Positions 2,767 through 26,604 of a stretch of DNA of 64,000 nt are shown one piece after another; position 1 is the first letter of the stretch, and the number at the start of each line of letters is the position of its first letter. The position numbers and the translations under genes were made by a program. This DNA comes from Methanoplanus limicola DSM 2279 (GTDB lineage: Archaea > Halobacteriota > Methanomicrobia > Methanomicrobiales > Methanomicrobiaceae): contig NZ_CM001436.1 of NCBI RefSeq assembly GCF_000243255.1, positions 1,152,077-1,216,076 of the forward strand, given 5' to 3'. A model generated the notes under the pieces. It was not told where the DNA came from and ran no database searches. It worked only from the letters and a program-made list of their open reading frames with translations.

Positions 2767-3537
2767 TTACAAACTGGATTTTGAACTCTTAATTTCCTTT
2801 ATATTTTTCAGAATTGTCCTTGACTGGTATACTGCATGGATATCATTTGAGAGAAACACCCCCTCAAGAATTCCGTTTCTCTCAAATACAAGCAGAGATT
2901 CATGCCGGTCGGTATAGATGACAAGCTTAATTGTGCTGATCTCCGTTACTTCTGACGGTGGAGAAAAAAAGGCAGAATTAATATCCTTATCACCAAGATA
3001 ACACTTTACACGGAGTTTTCCTGCGGTTTCCACATTACTTACAACAGGATATACCGGAATTCGTTTCTGAGTGCGTATAATTTCCGCTGAGAACTTCTCT
3101 AAGAATGATAAATCATTGCAGAGAATTATCATTTCAGATTTAGCTCTTGCAAAACTAAGCCGGATCTGCTTATCTATTGACCACGCAGTTCTAAGTTCAT
3201 AAGCCTGCAATACCTGTTCCGGCCTCTCTTTTTCAAAATTCTGAAGCCTTGTGCTGAGTCTGTCAAGAAATATCAGTTTTTCACGCTTAAGCCTGTCAAA
3301 CGTCCGGGAAACATCCGTTGCACTGTATCTTGCAGGGTTATCAGATGAAGAATTAACAAACCCCTTTTCGATCAGGGCATTCAGGGTTTCATATACTCTT
3401 CCACGCGGGATATTTGTGATCTCGTGAACTTCACGTGCACTGGCCACCCGCAGAGCGAGAAGAACTGTATATGTCTTCGCCTCATATTCACTCATACCCA
3501 GTTTATTTAATTCAGGAATAAGTGATTCATCTATCAT
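2767..3537 (-). CDS. TrmB-family transcriptional regulator
   Basis: The N-terminal winged helix (about residues 8-75: LNKLGMSEYEAKTYTVLLAL, then IPRGRVYETLNALIEKGFV) is the typical TrmB DNA-binding domain. It is followed by a coiled segment and a C-terminal effector domain. TrmB proteins control sugar transport or metabolism, but more distant members sense other ligands, so the ligand here is open. The gene is divergent from an MFS transporter, and the 115-bp gap contains a perfect 8-4-8 palindrome, so local control of the transporter and itself is likely (inference). Confidence 0.85.
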   Translation of the reverse strand: MIDESLIPELNKLGMSEYEAKTYTVLLALRVASAREVHEITNIPRGRVYETLNALIEKGFVNSSSDNPARYSATDVSRTFDRLKREKLIFLDRLSTRLQNFEKERPEQVLQAYELRTAWSIDKQIRLSFARAKSEMIILCNDLSFLEKFSAEIIRTQKRIPVYPVVSNVETAGKLRVKCYLGDKDINSAFFSPPSEVTEISTIKLVIYTDRHESLLVFERNGILEGVFLSNDIHAVYQSRTILKNIKEIKSSKSSL

Positions 3538-3601
3538 AACAAAAACCCCGGAATAAGAATTAATTACTGAATAATATCTGCCGGAAGTCTATTTATCCTG
3601 T

Positions 3602-9549: not shown

Positions 9550-11224
9550 AAGCCTGAAAGAAGAGGGAGCAGATATAATATTTGGATATCCGGGAGGATC
9601 AGTCCTCCCAATCTATGACGTTCTCTATGATTCAGGCATTAAGCATATTCTTGTCAGGCATGAACAGGCAGCCGTTCATGCGGCAGACGGATATGCAAGG
9701 GCATCGGGCAGAACCGGAGTCTGCCTTGCGACATCAGGACCGGGGGCATGCAACCTCGTATCCGGAATAGCAACCGCAAATATGGACTCTGTTCCGGTTG
9801 TGGCCCTGACAGGGCAGGTTCCGACAGGCATGCTTGGAAATGATGCCTTTCAGGAATCTGACATAACCGGAATCACAATGCCGGTTACGAAGCACAATTA
9901 TCTCGTAAACGAGGCGGGCAGCATCCGGAGAGTAGTAAAGGAGGCCTTCTTCATCGCCGGAACAGGCCGTAAAGGTCCTGTGCTCATCGACCTGCCAAAG
10001 GATGTCCAGACCGGGCTGGTTGATGAATCTGAGGTTTTAAACGAGGAAATTAACCTGAGAGGCTATAAGCCCACATACAGGGGCCACCCCAGACAGATCA
10101 AGAGTGCGATAAAGCTCATTGCGGAGGCAAAAAAGCCTATAATCTATGCAGGAGGCGGCGTAATCGCATCTGATTCCTCAGCTGATCTCGTAAAGCTTGC
10201 AGAGATGCTTGACCTTCCGGTTACGACAACAATGATGGGCCTTGGAGCAATTCCGGCACACCATCCGTTAAACCTCGGAATGCTCGGTATGCACGGGACA
10301 GAGGCTGCCAATTATGCAGTTACCGAGTGTGATCTGCTCATCGCAGTCGGTGCAAGGTTTGATGACAGGGTTACAGGCAAGATTGAAGAGTTCGCCCCCG
10401 GTGCAAAAGTTATCCACATAGATGTCGATCCGGCTGAGATCGGTAAGAATAAAGCTGTGGATGTTCCGATTGTCGGCGATGCGGGTGAAGTTCTGAGGGA
10501 GATGATAAACCTTTCAGAAACTCTGGATATTAAAAAGAAGGACCCCTGGCTTGAAAAGATAGAAAACTGGAGGGAGAACCATATGATGAAATACAGGGAT
10601 GACGAAGGGCTTCATCCGCAGTACATCATAGAGCAGCTCTCCGGAATTCTGGAAGGGAAAGGCATAATAGTATCCGAAGTCGGCCAGAACCAGATGTGGG
10701 CCGCACAGTATTACGGCTTTAAGTCGCCCAGGCAGTGGATAAGCTCAGGCGGCCTTGGAACTATGGGATACGGATTTCCGGCAGCGATTGGCGCACAGTT
10801 TGCAAAGCCTGACGAGACCGTTGTGCTGATAGCCGGGGACGGCAGTTTCCAGATGAATATACAGGAGCTCGGGACAGTATCACAGTATAATGTCCCTGTA
10901 AAGATGCTCATCCTGAATAATATGTACCTCGGCATGGTAAGGCAGTGGCAGGAACTCTTCTACGAGAGGAGGTATTCATATACCGAACTGCCCCAGGTAG
11001 ACTTTGTCGGAATAGCGGCAGCATACGGCATTCCCGGCCTGAAGGTCGAGAAGAGGGAAGATGTCGGAGAGGCTCTGAAAAAGGCTATGGAGACAAAAGG
11101 TCCGTTCCTAATCGACTTCAGGATCGAAAGGGAGGAGAATGTATTCCCTATGGTTCCGGCAGGTGCGGCGATAAGCGATATGATCGGATGCCACATACCG
11201 GAGGAAAAGGAGGCCGGAAGATGA
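9521..11224 (+). CDS. ilvB: Acetolactate synthase, large (catalytic) subunit
   Basis: Thiamine-diphosphate enzyme that joins two pyruvates, or pyruvate with 2-oxobutyrate, at the start of valine/leucine and isoleucine synthesis. The 567-residue protein has the ThDP Glu region (FGYPGGSVLPIYDVLYDS, then RHEQAAVHAADGYAR), a central FAD-binding-like domain with VGARFDDRVTGK, and the ThDP-binding GDGSFQMNIQEL ending in NN. ATG 9521 has AGGAGAG just upstream and overlaps the end of cimA. Its stop overlaps the start of ilvN (ATGA), as expected for a coupled large/small subunit pair. Confidence 0.97.
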   Translation: MKTGAQILIESLKEEGADIIFGYPGGSVLPIYDVLYDSGIKHILVRHEQAAVHAADGYARASGRTGVCLATSGPGACNLVSGIATANMDSVPVVALTGQVPTGMLGNDAFQESDITGITMPVTKHNYLVNEAGSIRRVVKEAFFIAGTGRKGPVLIDLPKDVQTGLVDESEVLNEEINLRGYKPTYRGHPRQIKSAIKLIAEAKKPIIYAGGGVIASDSSADLVKLAEMLDLPVTTTMMGLGAIPAHHPLNLGMLGMHGTEAANYAVTECDLLIAVGARFDDRVTGKIEEFAPGAKVIHIDVDPAEIGKNKAVDVPIVGDAGEVLREMINLSETLDIKKKDPWLEKIENWRENHMMKYRDDEGLHPQYIIEQLSGILEGKGIIVSEVGQNQMWAAQYYGFKSPRQWISSGGLGTMGYGFPAAIGAQFAKPDETVVLIAGDGSFQMNIQELGTVSQYNVPVKMLILNNMYLGMVRQWQELFYERRYSYTELPQVDFVGIAAAYGIPGLKVEKREDVGEALKKAMETKGPFLIDFRIEREENVFPMVPAGAAISDMIGCHIPEEKEAGR

Positions 11225-14611: not shown

Positions 14612-15094
14612 TTAAATTCGGGTTATCTTCCAGTCGGGGAAGTTTTTATTCCATCTCTCTACATTGACAACAAAGCACTTATCCACAGGTTTTTTCCGCC
14701 ACCTGCCGGGAAGGTTTTTACTTGGAAGCCGAAGCCTTAAGTCCTTCATAATTTTGGGAATCATAGGATTTTCCAGTTCAAGAAGGCAGACATATATTAT
14801 TGGTTTGTCCAGTCTGTCCTCTGCCCATCTGTACAAAAAGGAATCACGGAATTTTATATTCAGGGAATTTATTACATCCATGTAATTATCTTCAAAGTAA
14901 TTTTCAGAAGCAGTTGAATAGTCTTTCACCTCAACAAAATGATAATACTCCTCCGTCTCGATGATGAAATCAACCGCTTTCATGCAGTGAGATAGACCAT
15001 GAAATGTTTCTTTTGACCGGTCTTTCTCATCAAATTTAAATGCATCAATCACATTATTGAATTCAAACTGCAGATCTCCCTCCTGCAATATCAT
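14612..15094 (-). CDS. PD-(D/E)XK-like nuclease candidate, partner of the ATPase gene
   Basis: 160-residue protein without a family I can name. AVDFIIETEEYYHFVEVKDY (Asp42, Glu55, Lys57) fits the D-(10-13)-E-x-K core of PD-(D/E)XK nucleases, with Glu11 as a possible extra ligand. The gene starts in an ATGA overlap (15091-15094) with the upstream ATPase, so the two are translationally coupled. ATPase plus small nuclease pairs of this type are typical of phage- or plasmid-defence modules. The motif could be a chance match in a protein of other function; the fold is inferred, not shown. Confidence 0.6.
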   Translation of the reverse strand: MILQEGDLQFEFNNVIDAFKFDEKDRSKETFHGLSHCMKAVDFIIETEEYYHFVEVKDYSTASENYFEDNYMDVINSLNIKFRDSFLYRWAEDRLDKPIIYVCLLELENPMIPKIMKDLRLRLPSKNLPGRWRKKPVDKCFVVNVERWNKNFPDWKITRI

Positions 15095-16128
15095 TTAAGA
15101 CTGCTCCCCATCTCTTTCGCAATATCCCGATCAATAATGTCCGCAAATGTATCATCAATCGCATTGGGAGAAATCTTTTCATAATCCGGAGTTGAGGAGA
15201 TGGAGATCTCACTGGTTTCTTTGTCCCTGAAAAGGCTGTGATAGATTATCTGATCATTTTCAGTCGTCTGGAGGTCAAATTCTTTCAGGATAATATAATC
15301 ATGGGTTGAAATCAGTATCTGAACACCCATTCTCTGCAGTTCAACCAGAATTTCCACAACCGTTCTCATCAGTTTTGGGTTCAGATTTGCCTCAGGTTCA
15401 TCCCAACAAAGAACAGAACCATTCGTGAGGGTACCGTTCTGTATCAAAAGCCATAGAAGTGCCAGTTTTCTAAAGCCCTCTGCAACCAGTGTAAATTCAA
15501 GCTCACCGTGCCTGTTTTTCAGGAAGAACTCTTCATTTTTGATCACAACCCTTCCGTCAATGGACTTATGGAGGATATCCATGAGTCTTTTTCTTTCAGC
15601 ATCCATAGGACCTTTAAGAGAACCAAGGAAGGCACGGTCAATAATATCTGCATAAACCTCCTCAAAATGAATATCCCGCAGACTGTACAATGAACGGAAT
15701 CCCGGAGCATTGGCCATCATATCTTTAACAGGAATATATACAGACTCAATTGGCTCATCAGACCATGATTTGTACGCACCGGAAATTTCCGCACCTGCCG
15801 GACTCTCTGCACGGCTCATAATTTTGAGCCGTATAACCGGACTTTTATTTATCTTTGGTTCCCTACGGAGTTCCACAAAGCCATTGGAACTTCCTTTGGT
15901 TCTTTTAACAAGGCGCCCGGTATGCTCTCCGGATGGAAGAAAAACTTTGGTCAGTTTTTCTGCAAAACTTTTCCTACTTTTAGTAATCTCACAACCGGCA
16001 TACACTGCTTTTAGTATGTGTGTCTTACCAGTACCGTTTTCTCCGGTAAAGACATTTATTCCGGAAGAAAGACCAACCTCCAGTTCCTTAAAAGCAGTAA
16101 AGTTTTCAAATTTAATGAATTTTATCAT
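15091..16128 (-). CDS. AAA15/AAA21-type ATPase (OLD/SMC-like)
   Basis: 345-residue P-loop ATPase of the group with an SMC/ABC-type head. Walker A is GENGTGKT at residues 29-36, preceded by FIKFENFTAFKELEV. The signature-like EGFRKLALLWLL precedes Walker B VLCWDEPEANLNP, and the H-loop is ILISTHDYIILKEF. There is no long coiled coil and no fused TOPRIM domain. It overlaps the putative nuclease gene by 4 nt, indicating a two-gene system. Probably senses or moves on DNA and activates its partner (inference from related ATPase/nuclease defence pairs). Confidence 0.8.
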   Translation of the reverse strand: MIKFIKFENFTAFKELEVGLSSGINVFTGENGTGKTHILKAVYAGCEITKSRKSFAEKLTKVFLPSGEHTGRLVKRTKGSSNGFVELRREPKINKSPVIRLKIMSRAESPAGAEISGAYKSWSDEPIESVYIPVKDMMANAPGFRSLYSLRDIHFEEVYADIIDRAFLGSLKGPMDAERKRLMDILHKSIDGRVVIKNEEFFLKNRHGELEFTLVAEGFRKLALLWLLIQNGTLTNGSVLCWDEPEANLNPKLMRTVVEILVELQRMGVQILISTHDYIILKEFDLQTTENDQIIYHSLFRDKETSEISISSTPDYEKISPNAIDDTFADIIDRDIAKEMGSSLK

Positions 16129-16324: not shown

Positions 16325-17767
16325 TTACGCTCTGGAAAGATAAGGTCTGCTTAATTCTCTTAAATCCTCCAGATCAAAGACCTGGTAACCTTCTGCTCTC
16401 ATATTTTCTTTCCCGGAAATCTCCTTTGCTATGAGGCCATAGACCTCAGATCTCTTCTGGTTTTTCCATTCAACAAGTGGTGCTTTTTTTGTCAGTGATT
16501 TTAATATACCTCTTGCTTTCTTCTCAGAGAGATTCACCCACTTGCACTCACAGAACAGTGCTTTCTCTGACGATTCATCAAAGCCGACAATATCAATCTC
16601 ATTCTCCTTAAACCACCATCGCCCCAGTTTAGAGAAATACATATCCTCAAAGAAAAAGCTGTTTCGTACAAGTTCCATGCAGAGATTTTCAAACATTTTG
16701 CCAAAATACGGGGGCAGTTCAGCTTTGACAGACTCAAGCACATCAGAACCTTTCTTTGTCTCAATATCCATCCTGTGCGGATATACAACTGCAAACCAGA
16801 AGTTAAGGTATGGATCTAAAATCCTGTAGTGTCTCTTCCGGTAGCCTGCATGTGCAGTTACAGGTATCTCATCCGCAATGAGATGAATACCTGTCAGAAC
16901 TGAAAGGTATTTCGATACCATACTCTTATCAAGGCCGGTCTCCTGACAGACCGAAGAGAGATTTGTAAATCCGGATGAAAGGGCACGGAGGATTGATATG
17001 TAATTACCCGCTTCACGGAATTCATAGTGCAGCAGGATCTCGGCCTCAAGGTACAGGTATGAACCCTTGCTTAGCATCTGCTGCAAAATGTTCTCCCACA
17101 GGCCGGTATCAGGATTGAAAAACCTGAGATATGCCGGCACTCCCCCGATGACCGACCAGACCATTACAAGTTCCTCCTCTCTATAAGGAAGAAATTCCCG
17201 GAGATACGGATAAAAGAGAGGTTCAACCTGCCACTGTCCTGTTCTCCTGCCGTACAGCGGACTTTTGTAACCCAGCACCTCAGTTTCCATCGTGCTGACC
17301 GAAGAACCGGAGAGTATAAGCATTATATTTTCATCTGAAAGTATCAGATCCCAGATCTTCTGAAACGCAGATGGAACACCTTTATCCTTTGAAATAAGAT
17401 ATGAGAACTCATCAATTACAATTATAACCCTCTCACCGGAAGCAGGACTAAAATTTCTGTGGCTGACGAGGGACTTTAATACAACCTGCCAGTCCGGAAA
17501 AATGGTTCTTTTAAAGTCCGGATCTTTGAGGTAATCACCTGCAACATCTGCAAAATCACGGATATTTCCGGCCCTGCCCTCCTCTGAGGCCATGAAGTAA
17601 AATCCCGGACGGTTTTTGAGAAAACGGGAGATAAGAGTAGTCTTTCCAACCCTTCTCCTGCCGTATATTATTATCAGTTCCGGAATTCTGGAATTATAAT
17701 GACCGGTTAAGAACTCCATCTCATCATTCCGGTCAACAAACTCCGGCACAGACTTTTGTTGAGACAT
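16325..17767 (-). CDS. DUF234-type archaeal ATPase
   Basis: 480-residue protein of the archaeal ATPase/DUF234 family. The P-loop is IIIYGRRRVGKTTLISRF (about residues 32-49), followed by VIIVIDEFSYL as Walker B and LILSGSSVS as sensor 1. A winged-helix segment (SSVCQETGLDKSMVSKYLSVL) is in the middle. The C-terminal region contains EIDIVGFDESSEKALFCECKW, which fits the PD-(D/E)XK-like core of DUF234. These proteins are expanded in archaea; their job is poorly defined and often linked to mobile or defence regions. Start at ATG 17767; no operon partner. Confidence 0.85.
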   Translation of the reverse strand: MSQQKSVPEFVDRNDEMEFLTGHYNSRIPELIIIYGRRRVGKTTLISRFLKNRPGFYFMASEEGRAGNIRDFADVAGDYLKDPDFKRTIFPDWQVVLKSLVSHRNFSPASGERVIIVIDEFSYLISKDKGVPSAFQKIWDLILSDENIMLILSGSSVSTMETEVLGYKSPLYGRRTGQWQVEPLFYPYLREFLPYREEELVMVWSVIGGVPAYLRFFNPDTGLWENILQQMLSKGSYLYLEAEILLHYEFREAGNYISILRALSSGFTNLSSVCQETGLDKSMVSKYLSVLTGIHLIADEIPVTAHAGYRKRHYRILDPYLNFWFAVVYPHRMDIETKKGSDVLESVKAELPPYFGKMFENLCMELVRNSFFFEDMYFSKLGRWWFKENEIDIVGFDESSEKALFCECKWVNLSEKKARGILKSLTKKAPLVEWKNQKRSEVYGLIAKEISGKENMRAEGYQVFDLEDLRELSRPYLSRA

Positions 17768-22725: not shown

Positions 22726-23799
22726 TTAAGAGAAATCACCAAATGTTGTATTGGCAGAAACCTTTGATTTCTTAGACCCTGTTAAAGAAAGTTCCTGCTC
22801 TGATTCCTCCGCTATTTCCGGAACTTCAGGAGTATAATTGGTTACAACAATCTCATTAATCGCAGATCTGGAATTACCTTTTGAGTTTATCATCCTCTTC
22901 GCAGGCACCCTTTCGATATTAAAATCACTGTAGAGGTCATCAAAGAAGTTGTCATCCGGAGAATTGTTCTTTGGGTCGGAATTGCTGAGCATGACCTTTG
23001 CTGACTTTTCACTGCACATCCTGAAAAATCCTGCAAGCCTCCTCTGATCGTCATCAGTAAACCCGCCCTTTGCATAGCTGTTGAAGCTTGATGTCTTATT
23101 TAAGGGACGGTATGGCGGATCGAAGTAGAGGAATGTATTCTCATCCACAAGCCTGCCAGCCTCTTCAAAATCTCCATGATGAACCTGAGTATTCTCAAGG
23201 GATTCTGATGCTGGAATGAGATAATTCTTTATTGCTATTGTCGGGTTTTTGTATTTTCCCATCGGAACATTGAATCCGCCGCTGCTGTTCACCCTGTACA
23301 GACCGTTAAAACACGTCCGGTTCAGAAATATCAGTTTTGCAGTCCTCTCTATTCCTTTAGCACCGGAAGCCGGGTAATCAAACCCATCCCTTTCGTCATT
23401 GTATGAGGACCGGATATTGTAATAGTACTCCTTTCTCCCCTCTTCATCAAGAGGGAGATATTCACCCTGATGATTCTCTAAAATCTCAATAAGCTCTTCG
23501 ACCGAATCCTTCACCGTCCGGTAGCAGAGGACAAGTTCAGGGTTTATATCAAAGATGTGGCATTCTTCCGGGCGGTAACGGTAATTTACCCTGAAATATA
23601 CTGCACCTCCACCAATGAACGGCTCAATAAACCGGGTGATCTCAAAACTATCTCCGCCTTCATACTTACCCTTCCGGTTGCCCGGACCTCCGGTAAGCTC
23701 TTTTGGAAACCTCTTCTCAAGTTCAGGAAGTATCTGCGACTTCCCACCGGCCCATTTTAAAAAAGGCCCTGCATCAATATTTTTTCTTGCTATTGCCAT
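22726..23799 (-). CDS. Dam-type DNA adenine-N6 methyltransferase
   Basis: D12-class adenine methylase. The order is FLKWAGGKSQILPEL, the SAM loop FIEPFIGGGAVYF, and the catalytic DPPY motif in LYFDPPYRPLNKTSSF, as in Dam/M.DpnII-type (alpha group) enzymes. A C-terminal tail of about 45 Glu/Ser-rich residues exceeds the usual length. No matching restriction endonuclease is recognisable. The gene is divergent from an ATPase/TOPRIM pair, 234 bp away. It may protect host DNA for a neighbouring system, or be an orphan methylase (inference). The target, perhaps GATC-like, cannot be read from the sequence. Confidence 0.9.
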   Translation of the reverse strand: MAIARKNIDAGPFLKWAGGKSQILPELEKRFPKELTGGPGNRKGKYEGGDSFEITRFIEPFIGGGAVYFRVNYRYRPEECHIFDINPELVLCYRTVKDSVEELIEILENHQGEYLPLDEEGRKEYYYNIRSSYNDERDGFDYPASGAKGIERTAKLIFLNRTCFNGLYRVNSSGGFNVPMGKYKNPTIAIKNYLIPASESLENTQVHHGDFEEAGRLVDENTFLYFDPPYRPLNKTSSFNSYAKGGFTDDDQRRLAGFFRMCSEKSAKVMLSNSDPKNNSPDDNFFDDLYSDFNIERVPAKRMINSKGNSRSAINEIVVTNYTPEVPEIAEESEQELSLTGSKKSKVSANTTFGDFS

Positions 23800-24032
23800 G
23801 AAATATTCCTTATTTTAGAGTTATGTCTCCATTACAGCATTTTAGCCTTAAATTGCTCAATTCATAGGAATTTGTAACTCAGCCAGATACAGTATCTGTA
23901 TATATTTTGAATTTCAGGGTTCAAATATGATGCCGTTATATAACAAAAATAAGACTCCTGACCGGAGAAAGATCATGGATTCTATCTCAACAGAAAATTA
24001 AATTACACACATTAAACAAATAAAGACATATT

Positions 24033-25382
24033 GTGAACAGTATCTCAGGTGTTTCGATTAAAAATTACAGGGCTATTGACAACGCAGAATTTAAGGCAAA
24101 ACCAATTACAATAATTGTTGGACCAAACAATTGTGGGAAATCTTCAGTTCTGGAAGCAATGTCACTGGCTATTTCTGAAGATAATAATTTTAAAGATTCT
24201 CTTGGCTATTCTGTCCTCCAATATCTTAGCAATAAATATTCTATCGGGAATCTGGCCAGAAATCCAAAAGATTCGGTTCTGATAGATATTGACAACTGCA
24301 AAACTGAACTTACAGTTATTTACTCAGGATATCCTGATAATGAAAAAGGCAGAGTAATTCAGGACTTTCTGAAAAAAAGCATAGATTCCTTCTTTGAGAG
24401 AGCGGACATCATAAAAGAGATAAACTATTCATTTAATGAAAACAGTAAATACAACCTGAAATCCGGGCAGCAATCACAACCTGCACCAATAAATATACAT
24501 GACTGGAATTTAAGGGATACTTACCCGGATAAAAAGCAAGACAGCAATATTATTTCAGATGAAGAAAATGACATTTATATTAAAAACATTGAAAATTCCT
24601 TTTCAGAAAATTTAAACAGATATATTCATTCCCTAAAGGAAGACATTAATTCAGAGATATTCAACGCAAAAAAACTAATATTATCCAGATTTAAATCAGA
24701 ATCTCTTGAAAATATCCAATTCAGACTTATATTCAGGGACAATTTAAAGAACCAGATGTTGAAGAGGTTTATGAATTATTTCCAGGATAAATTTCCTTTT
24801 GGAATACAGATAAACAATAATTGCCAAAAAAGAACACTAATCTCAGGCCTTGAAAAAAAAGCTGTACCGCTGGAAAAACTGCATGACCTTGTTGTGGAAA
24901 AAAACCTGATAAACGAGACAATCACCAGAATTGTGAATGAAATTCCGTATATAAACGATATCAGGAAGACAGACAAAGGAATGATGGTATCATTAGCCGG
25001 ACATGACAATATGCTACCAATATCTTCAATGGGTGACGGTTTTAAAAGCATTCTTGAAGTATTCTTTTTAAGTGCACTGGCAAAACAGGGCGTTGTTATA
25101 CTTGAAGAACCGGAGGTATCACTGCATCCCGGATATATTCAGATGTTCTGTGAGATGGTTATAAATTCATCAAAAGAGACACAGTTTTTCTTTTCCACTC
25201 ATTCCAGAGACATCATAGAAGAGATACTGGAAACTGCCAGACAGAAGAATTCCTTAGATGACATTGCAATATTAAGAATGCATAACCGTATGGACCTGCA
25301 TGCCAGTGAAATCGAGATCTTATCCGGAACTGAAGCACTGGACGATATTGAATCAATAAACTGTGATTTAAGGGGCGTATAA
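24033..25382 (+). CDS. OLD-like AAA ATPase
   Basis: 449-residue ATPase with an SMC/ABC-like head. Walker A is GPNNCGKSS (residues 30-38) after VSIKNYRAIDNAEF; Walker B is VVILEEPEVSLHP, and FFFSTHSRDIIEEIL is the H-loop. The middle (about 90-290) is long, charged and partly helical. It resembles the ATPase half of OLD/Gabija-like proteins, but the TOPRIM part is not fused: it is probably the next gene, 3 nt downstream. Start is GTG 24033 with no clear Shine-Dalgarno, so it may be leaderless. Likely a defence ATPase. Confidence 0.8.
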   Translation: MNSISGVSIKNYRAIDNAEFKAKPITIIVGPNNCGKSSVLEAMSLAISEDNNFKDSLGYSVLQYLSNKYSIGNLARNPKDSVLIDIDNCKTELTVIYSGYPDNEKGRVIQDFLKKSIDSFFERADIIKEINYSFNENSKYNLKSGQQSQPAPINIHDWNLRDTYPDKKQDSNIISDEENDIYIKNIENSFSENLNRYIHSLKEDINSEIFNAKKLILSRFKSESLENIQFRLIFRDNLKNQMLKRFMNYFQDKFPFGIQINNNCQKRTLISGLEKKAVPLEKLHDLVVEKNLINETITRIVNEIPYINDIRKTDKGMMVSLAGHDNMLPISSMGDGFKSILEVFFLSALAKQGVVILEEPEVSLHPGYIQMFCEMVINSSKETQFFFSTHSRDIIEEILETARQKNSLDDIAILRMHNRMDLHASEIEILSGTEALDDIESINCDLRGV

Positions 25383-25385
25383 TTT

Positions 25386-26084
25386 TTGATAGACCCGATA
25401 TTGTGTGAGGGGATAAACGATGGCTGGTTTCTCCAGGAATTAATTACCAGAGATTATCAGAAAGAACCATTACTATATGACAACAAAATTTCAGAATTTT
25501 TAAGGGCTGTACAAAGCAGCAGCAGTTACTACAAAGAGAGATATCCATGCCTGATCTTAAGTGATAACGGCCATCAGCTGATGGACAAATACCTCCCACA
25601 GACCATACGTGATTTATTTGGCAAAACAAACGCGGGGAATACCACATTTATAGTTCTGAAGGATAACGATGGCTCCCCGGATGAAATGCTTATGAGACAG
25701 TACCTGGCTAAAACAAAAAGAATTCTGCCAGCTAAAAATCTAAAAAAAGCTGATATATCTCTTGACAGAAATACTCAAAATCTGTTAATTACTTCAACAG
25801 AAGACAATTCTTATTCCTTTACTTTCTCTTTCATCTTTGTATCCGGCAGTCTTGAAAGTGAGATTGTGAGCAGATATTCAGATAAATATCGACCAAACAA
25901 AACGGAATCAAAAAGGCTGAAAGGGATGGACCCACACAAAGCCCTTGAATATATCGCCGCCGTCAATGAAAAATTCAAAAACAGGGAAGAAGTCATAAGG
26001 ACTTCTGTAAATGAAAACTGGTTCTCAGATGAGAGATGGTTTCAGGATCTCTGTGTAAAAATAAGAGAGATTCCACCACTATAG
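25386..26084 (+). CDS. TOPRIM-like nuclease candidate, partner of the OLD-like ATPase
   Basis: 232 residues. ILCEGINDGWFLQEL (Glu8, Gly9, Asp12) fits the TOPRIM EGxxD motif and FIVLKDNDGS (Asp93, Asp95) the DxD motif, the metal ligands of topoisomerase/OLD-type nucleases. SGSLESEIV and a Lys/Glu-rich end follow, as in DUF3226/DUF4435-like proteins. It starts at TTG 25386, 3 nt after the ATPase, so the two form one unit. Together they look like a split OLD or PARIS-like two-protein system. The fold is inferred from motifs only. Confidence 0.6.
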   Translation: MIDPILCEGINDGWFLQELITRDYQKEPLLYDNKISEFLRAVQSSSSYYKERYPCLILSDNGHQLMDKYLPQTIRDLFGKTNAGNTTFIVLKDNDGSPDEMLMRQYLAKTKRILPAKNLKKADISLDRNTQNLLITSTEDNSYSFTFSFIFVSGSLESEIVSRYSDKYRPNKTESKRLKGMDPHKALEYIAAVNEKFKNREEVIRTSVNENWFSDERWFQDLCVKIREIPPL

Positions 26085-26142
26085 AGAAGATTAACGCCCC
26101 CTAAATAAGTGAATTCGCAGGAATCCTTTCCGGAAAAAATAT

Positions 26143-26604
26143 TCAGAGGGAATCTCCCTCAATGCGATAGAGATACCAGTCCTGCCTCTCTGCACCCCTG
26201 TTTTCATAGAAATCTATTGAAGGCTGATTCCATGTCAGAACAGTCCAGTCCATTCTCCCGCAGCCTCTCTCTTTTGCAACATTCCGGCAGAAATCAAAGA
26301 ACATACCGCCTATGCCCATCTTTCTGTAATCCTTTGATACAAATATGTCCTCAAGGTACAGGGTTGGTTTTGCAAGAAATGTCGAGTAGGTGAAGTAGAA
26401 TGTGATGTAGCCCACCGGAATTTCATCCAAAAAGGACAGATATGCCTCATATTTTGGATTTTCAGAGAAGGCATCCTCTTTCAGGCGCAGGACTGCATCA
26501 GCGTCCGGAGGAGTTAATTTTTCATAATCCGCAAGCTCACGGATTAGTGATACAAAATCCGGAAAATTCTCCGGAGATACTTTGATTATTGAAATATCAC
26601 TCAT
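26143..26604 (-). CDS. GNAT N-acetyltransferase, SSAT/thialysine-like
   Basis: 153 residues of the single-domain GNAT fold. LYLEDIFVSKDYRKMGIGGMFFDFC is the acetyl-CoA-binding strand-loop-helix, and RMDWTVLTWNQPSIDFYENRGAERQ is typical of the diamine/thialysine acetyltransferase branch. It may acetylate polyamines or small amines in the cytoplasm; the exact substrate is not evident. Start ATG 26604; it is convergent with the TOPRIM-like gene. Confidence 0.85.
   Translation of the reverse strand: MSDISIIKVSPENFPDFVSLIRELADYEKLTPPDADAVLRLKEDAFSENPKYEAYLSFLDEIPVGYITFYFTYSTFLAKPTLYLEDIFVSKDYRKMGIGGMFFDFCRNVAKERGCGRMDWTVLTWNQPSIDFYENRGAERQDWYLYRIEGDSL

Follow-up and report, generated by a model that had tools for sequence, protein, structure and literature searches.

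The closest described systems to the gene pair analyzed here are PARIS, the PADLOC candidate PDC-M38, and the TOPRIM of type I-C retrons, and the pair looks like a divergent archaeal relative of these. In PARIS (AriA/AriB, OLD class 4), a hexameric AriA sequesters AriB, a viral protein serves as the trigger, and tRNA is cleaved. Prior work has described AriA as an ATPase that retains the TOPRIM nuclease AriB and lets it go when a viral protein gives the signal (PMC12409363), and PARIS has been reported to be restricted to bacteria (PMC12796447). The active site of the Retron-Eco2 TOPRIM comprises E374, D378, D460, D462, S513, and E515 together with a lysine, K562 (PMC12405507). For PDC-M38, a literature search found no paper.

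The pair lies within a 64,000-nucleotide stretch of the Methanoplanus limicola DSM 2279 genome, referred to here as the window (Table 1). Three open reading frames proposed by an initial annotation, made from the sequence alone, proved real and their coordinates stood unchanged. The TOPRIM gene begins 3 bp past the ATPase stop codon, and the GC content of the two genes is 35.7% compared to 43.0% for the window, a modest signal given that 6 of 125 2-kb segments are equally low. We estimate at roughly 70% the probability that the pair is a self-contained two-gene defense module of PARIS-like design, in which an OLD/AriA-type ABC ATPase holds a separate TOPRIM nuclease, and that it was inserted beside an unlinked DNA methylase.

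Table 1. Features at the locus, elsewhere in the window and genome, and at related loci
Feature	Location	Strand	Details
Dam-family N6-adenine methylase	window 22726-23799	-	357 aa; TIGR00571, PF02086
OLD/AriA/PDC-M38A-like ABC ATPase (AAA_15)	window 24033-25382	+	449 aa, GTG start; proposed sensor and cage
TOPRIM nuclease	window 25386-26084	+	232 aa, TTG start; proposed effector
GNAT acetyltransferase	window 26143-26604	-	right-hand boundary of the variable site
PADLOC HEC-02A match	window 15091-16128	-	1.4e-126
PADLOC HEC-02B match	window 14612-15094	-	2.8e-63
ATPase_2/DUF234 archaeal ATPase	window 16325-17767	-	PADLOC candidate PDC-S27, 2.6e-47
Dam-type methylase and DUF6996/6997/7226 protein	L055:12935-15068 (G120)		likely type II restriction-modification
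Dam-type methylase and DUF6996/6997/7226 protein	L138:4099-6214 (G116)		likely type II restriction-modification
Single-chain OLD-like TOPRIM protein	G000:C1:2396048 (L104)		same genome as the window
DUF4435 protein	G000:C1:2509136 (L120)		same genome as the window
ATPase of the Methanogenium pair	L049:7134-8466		in two ORFs
Second, fragmentary pair	L050:3359-5034		
TOPRIM frame change	L052 ~3430-3560		
TOPRIM frame change	L053 ~10800-10980		

Comparison with described ATPase/TOPRIM systems

We found that the pair has the features of a split OLD-like pair of class-4-like layout, namely an ATPase of the OLD/AriA group, an adjacent TOPRIM gene with EGxxD, DxD, and SxE motifs, and co-travel of the two genes. 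The two-gene arrangement of an ATPase and a TOPRIM-type protein is shared with PDC-M38 (components A and B). The PDC-M38A model is the best ATPase model for two related loci (L045 and L054), ranks second behind AriA for the window ATPase, and covers its C-terminus, and PDC-M38B is the model most often matched by TOPRIM members (5 of 11). The window protein matches PDC-M38B weakly and in part, with a best E value of 2.1e-4 over approximately 140 of 250 positions of a model that has no curated cut-off.

PARIS likewise separates an ABC ATPase from a TOPRIM effector, and AriA is the best PADLOC match of the window ATPase (5.9e-27). The effectors differ, however, since the window TOPRIM is not a DUF4435 protein: PF14491 is matched by none of the 11 members, and the window TOPRIM profile aligned to archaeal DUF4435 proteins with an E value of only 0.067 over 25 columns. 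The initial annotation had read the genes as OLD or PARIS split in two; the OLD-like ATPase and TOPRIM in separate genes hold up, while membership in PARIS does not. Retron-Eco2 (Ec67, RT-Toprim I-C) resembles the window protein in its TOPRIM profile, active-site residues, and near-identical spacing, but the pair comes with neither a reverse transcriptase nor msDNA; the 232-aa protein consists of a TOPRIM only, with an ABC ATPase as its partner. Profile comparison relates the pair to OLD and Gabija GajA through both the ATPase superfamily (E value of 1.9e-23 against archaeal OLD ATPases) and the TOPRIM core (4.4e-4 against the TOPRIM domains of 27 archaeal OLD-type proteins). Gabija was rejected, as GajA is a single chain whereas the window has separate genes, and no UvrD-like GajB helicase lies adjacent. 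MADS was also rejected: the AAA_15 ATPase resembles mad3 (3.6e-17) but scores far below the NCBIfam cut-off (41.6 versus 420 bits), and the methylase is unlinked to the pair. The same genome separately encodes a single-chain OLD-like TOPRIM protein and a DUF4435 protein (Table 1).

The ATPase, the TOPRIM protein, and their proposed function

Judged by its sequence, the window ATPase is an OLD/AriA/PDC-M38A-like protein of the OLD/AriA group. It matches AAA_15 in Pfam (E value of 1.8e-27) and, after AriA, PDC-M38A in PADLOC (8.2e-25). The Walker A (GPNNCGKSS) and Walker B (LEEPEVSLHP) motifs recognized in the initial annotation are both there, and their motif residues are kept in 10 homologues. 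A conserved C-terminal sequence, GxEALxxIExIxxDLRG, lies just ahead of the TOPRIM start and is specific to this ATPase family. The predicted ATPase structure is of too low confidence for use (pLDDT of 52).

The 232-aa protein matched no Pfam family, and sequence searches of solved structures gave nothing useful for it. It is a TOPRIM protein, on the basis of profile alignment, conserved residues with Eco2-like spacing, weak PADLOC matches, and the strand order of a structure model, and these bear out the earlier TOPRIM call. In an alignment of homologues from 11 further genomes in the class, G9, D93, D95, S155, and E157 are invariant (11 of 11), E8 is kept in 10 and D12 in 9, the two rows without D12 being those for which the ORF used does not include the N-terminus. 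The EGxxD and DxD metal motifs described previously are thus conserved, as part of an acidic and serine set formed by E8, D12, D93xD95, and S155xE157. Each of these six residues has a counterpart in the Eco2 active site; the short spacings are identical and the gap between the second and third residues (D12 to D93) is 81 residues compared to 82 in Eco2. The catalytic lysine K562 of Eco2 has no strict equivalent in the alignment, in which position R205 is basic in most members.

The profile alignment to OLD TOPRIM domains has these motifs in register (EG pairs with EG and DxD with DxD), and 10 column-shuffled control profiles all gave E values of 0.4 or worse. Beyond PDC-M38B, PADLOC returned RT-Toprim_I-C for the window protein (1.6e-4), the best member for this model being that of L054 (1.1e-6), and the NCBIfam match to NF038237 (8.5e-6) is far below the family cut-off. 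The predicted structure (pLDDT of 80.7) has the expected order of strands and helices, with E8 following the first strand and D93 ending the strand at residues 85-93. Foldseek of this model against the PDB found nothing below an E value of 1e-3, the weak matches being AriB chains (0.07-0.23) and Retron-Eco2 (0.30) with low TM-scores. Structure prediction, which the initial annotation had suggested as a check, recovered the TOPRIM strand order and no fold match at that threshold.

By analogy with PARIS, the ATPase is likely the sensor and cage and the TOPRIM protein likely the effector. The ATPase would oligomerize, keep the TOPRIM protein inactive, and sense an infection cue; once freed, the TOPRIM protein would cut nucleic acid, and this cleavage would halt the growth of an infected cell. 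RNA is a more likely target than DNA, as both AriB and the TOPRIM of Eco2 act as RNases. The pairing, the domain assignments, the conserved active site, the defense-type neighborhoods, and the occupied and empty states of the site are observations; from them we infer cage-and-release logic, an RNase substrate, and the defense role itself. The pair might further represent a not yet characterized archaeal lineage of split ATPase/TOPRIM defense, PARIS-like except in its effector family, where an OLD-type ATPase controls an Eco2-like TOPRIM RNase that in other settings serves a retron as effector; this proposal is tentative, and we give it slightly less than even odds. If the pair is defensive, cultured methanogens would provide an archaeal example of split ATPase/TOPRIM systems, in a setting where class 4 was reported to be absent (PMC12796447), and a test case for an Eco2-type TOPRIM re-wired to an ATPase sensor.

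We consider it unlikely that the pair is instead an OLD nuclease in two parts that targets DNA rather than RNA, nicking or degrading that of invaders as GajA or P2 Old would. Against this, PADLOC favors PDC-M38B and the TOPRIM of type I-C retrons, a model that includes the RNase type of Eco2, and PARIS, the best-studied split pair, is a tRNase. The closest profile match in our direct test was nevertheless to OLD TOPRIM domains, and both OLD and GajA cut DNA (PMC10568477).

Pairing and distribution

At 10 of 11 other loci in the class, the ATPase gene is directly upstream of the TOPRIM gene on the same strand; at the eleventh (L051), the contig ends before the ATPase position. The two genes belong together. 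Their distribution is patchy: of the 232 genomes in the class, 12 carry the pair, and a sample of the phylum gave 10 of 393, where only two matches fall outside the order. A contig search of a closer set yielded five loci, all in Methanomicrobia methanogens (Methanocalculus, Methanocorpusculaceae, and Methanogenium). Searches of plasmid and phage proteins gave no match, and none was found among viral contigs.

The neighbors of the pair include type I restriction-modification genes at three loci (L044, L047, and L048, the last HsdR-like by an identical protein start), a type III-like restriction-modification methylase and helicase (L046), SLFN_AlbA_2 together with a KAP ATPase (L049) or without it (L050), and a zeta-toxin-like gene (L054). 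An upstream alanine/glycine-rich ORF and an ASCH gene were considered as a third component and rejected, as they recur only in some Methanocalculus-type loci.

An OLD-type protein need not be defensive: Cran1, an archaeal OLD protein of Sulfolobales, is a cell-cycle factor (PMC12796447), and the pair could by comparison be a housekeeping or cell-cycle/repair ATPase and nuclease. This is improbable, more so than DNA targeting, as the pair is missing from a genome of the same genus, several copies look broken (the ATPase is split in L049, and the TOPRIM frame is broken in L052 and L053), and restriction-modification and other defense genes lie nearby. Patchy, broken, and defense-flanked copies are unlike essential genes, and we retain the two-gene defense module as the preferred reading.

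Several individual copies are listed in Table 1. The division of the Methanogenium ATPase into two ORFs suggests decay. The fragmentary second pair of L050 is on a contig that also carries an intact one. In two distant relatives, L052 and L053, the TOPRIM frame changes at a similar place, soon after CEGKxD; a run of seven T is found at this site in L053 and none in L052, and the change could be an assembly error, decay, or a programmed frameshift.

The methylase and the variable site

The methylase belongs to the Dam-family D12 N6-adenine methylases (271 bits for TIGR00571 and 1.7e-60 for PF02086), which agrees with its initial annotation as a DNA adenine methylase. Its acidic tail, pointed out as unusual, is real but is a local extension and no hallmark of a system: it is kept in a remnant from the same genus, at 84% identity across residues 215-357, is missing from a 67%-identical orthologue that stops at 320 aa, and most other methylase homologues in the class align only up to about residue 323-334. 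It was also correct that no restriction enzyme adjoins the methylase in the window, so that a type II restriction-modification system lacks its cognate enzyme there, yet the same-genus genome G120 has a candidate enzyme at the same site. Homologous methylases elsewhere show a comparable arrangement, as that of L033 adjoins a candidate restriction enzyme of the DUF6996/6997/7226 type and L037 has a similar protein.

At a threshold E value of 1e-20 or better, 156 of the 232 class genomes have a methylase homologue, and most of these lack the pair. Such a homologue occurs in 11 of 12 genomes with the pair, the exception being G107, and in 145 of 220 without it, a difference that is not significant (Fisher p = 0.11). 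None of the flanks of the 11 other TOPRIM loci contains it (144 kb in total, several flanks being short). The initial annotation had staked a methylation-linked system on all three genes traveling together in other genomes; the ATPase and TOPRIM genes do so, and the methylase, within the available flanks, does not.

Comparison of the site across genomes accounts for the arrangement in the window. In a genome of another genus of the same family (G114), the 67%-identical orthologue is 18 bp from the GNAT gene, in the same order and strands as in the window and with no pair between them; the pair occupies this same interval in the window, encoded on the other strand. Alignment of G120, in which the pair was not found, breaks off inside the window methylase at 23151 and picks up again at 26142, at the end of the GNAT gene. 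The G120 site holds a different Dam-type methylase and a 434-aa DUF6996/6997/7226 protein, a complete, likely type II restriction-modification system that has cut the resident methylase to its last 143 residues. We read the 434-aa protein as a candidate restriction enzyme, from its position and its repeated pairing with such methylases; our literature search found no paper naming a DUF6996/6997 enzyme family. The same two-gene system (80% and 67% identical) adjoins the GNAT gene in G116.

Different defense modules have thus entered this site, which is a defense-swap spot and a clean natural record of modules replacing one another at one chromosomal place. From the site states and the low GC content together, and with the direction taken from these rather than from a tree, we infer that the pair was inserted in the window and not lost in G114. 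The methylase would neighbor the pair because the pair was inserted between the resident GNAT gene and the resident methylase.

A three-gene system, in which the methylase marks self DNA and the pair attacks unmarked DNA, is therefore very improbable and was rejected on linkage and site comparison: in its favor are the divergent layout in this one genome and the methylase homologues found somewhere in nearly all pair genomes, and these are outweighed by the absence of the methylase from the flanks of every other locus, by its frequency in genomes without the pair, by the pair without methylase in G107, by the GNAT-adjacent methylase of G114, and by the quite different restriction-modification types at most other pair loci. 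The methylase was probably there first and is a solitary resident of the chromosome, a neighbor by chance with no functional link to the two-gene defense module. The three-gene reading is tempting, and its correction illustrates that a divergent gene neighbor is weak evidence.

Elsewhere in the window, the HEC-02A and HEC-02B matches form a second two-gene ATPase pair (14612-16128), which is mostly alignable to the same-genus genome at 76-82%.
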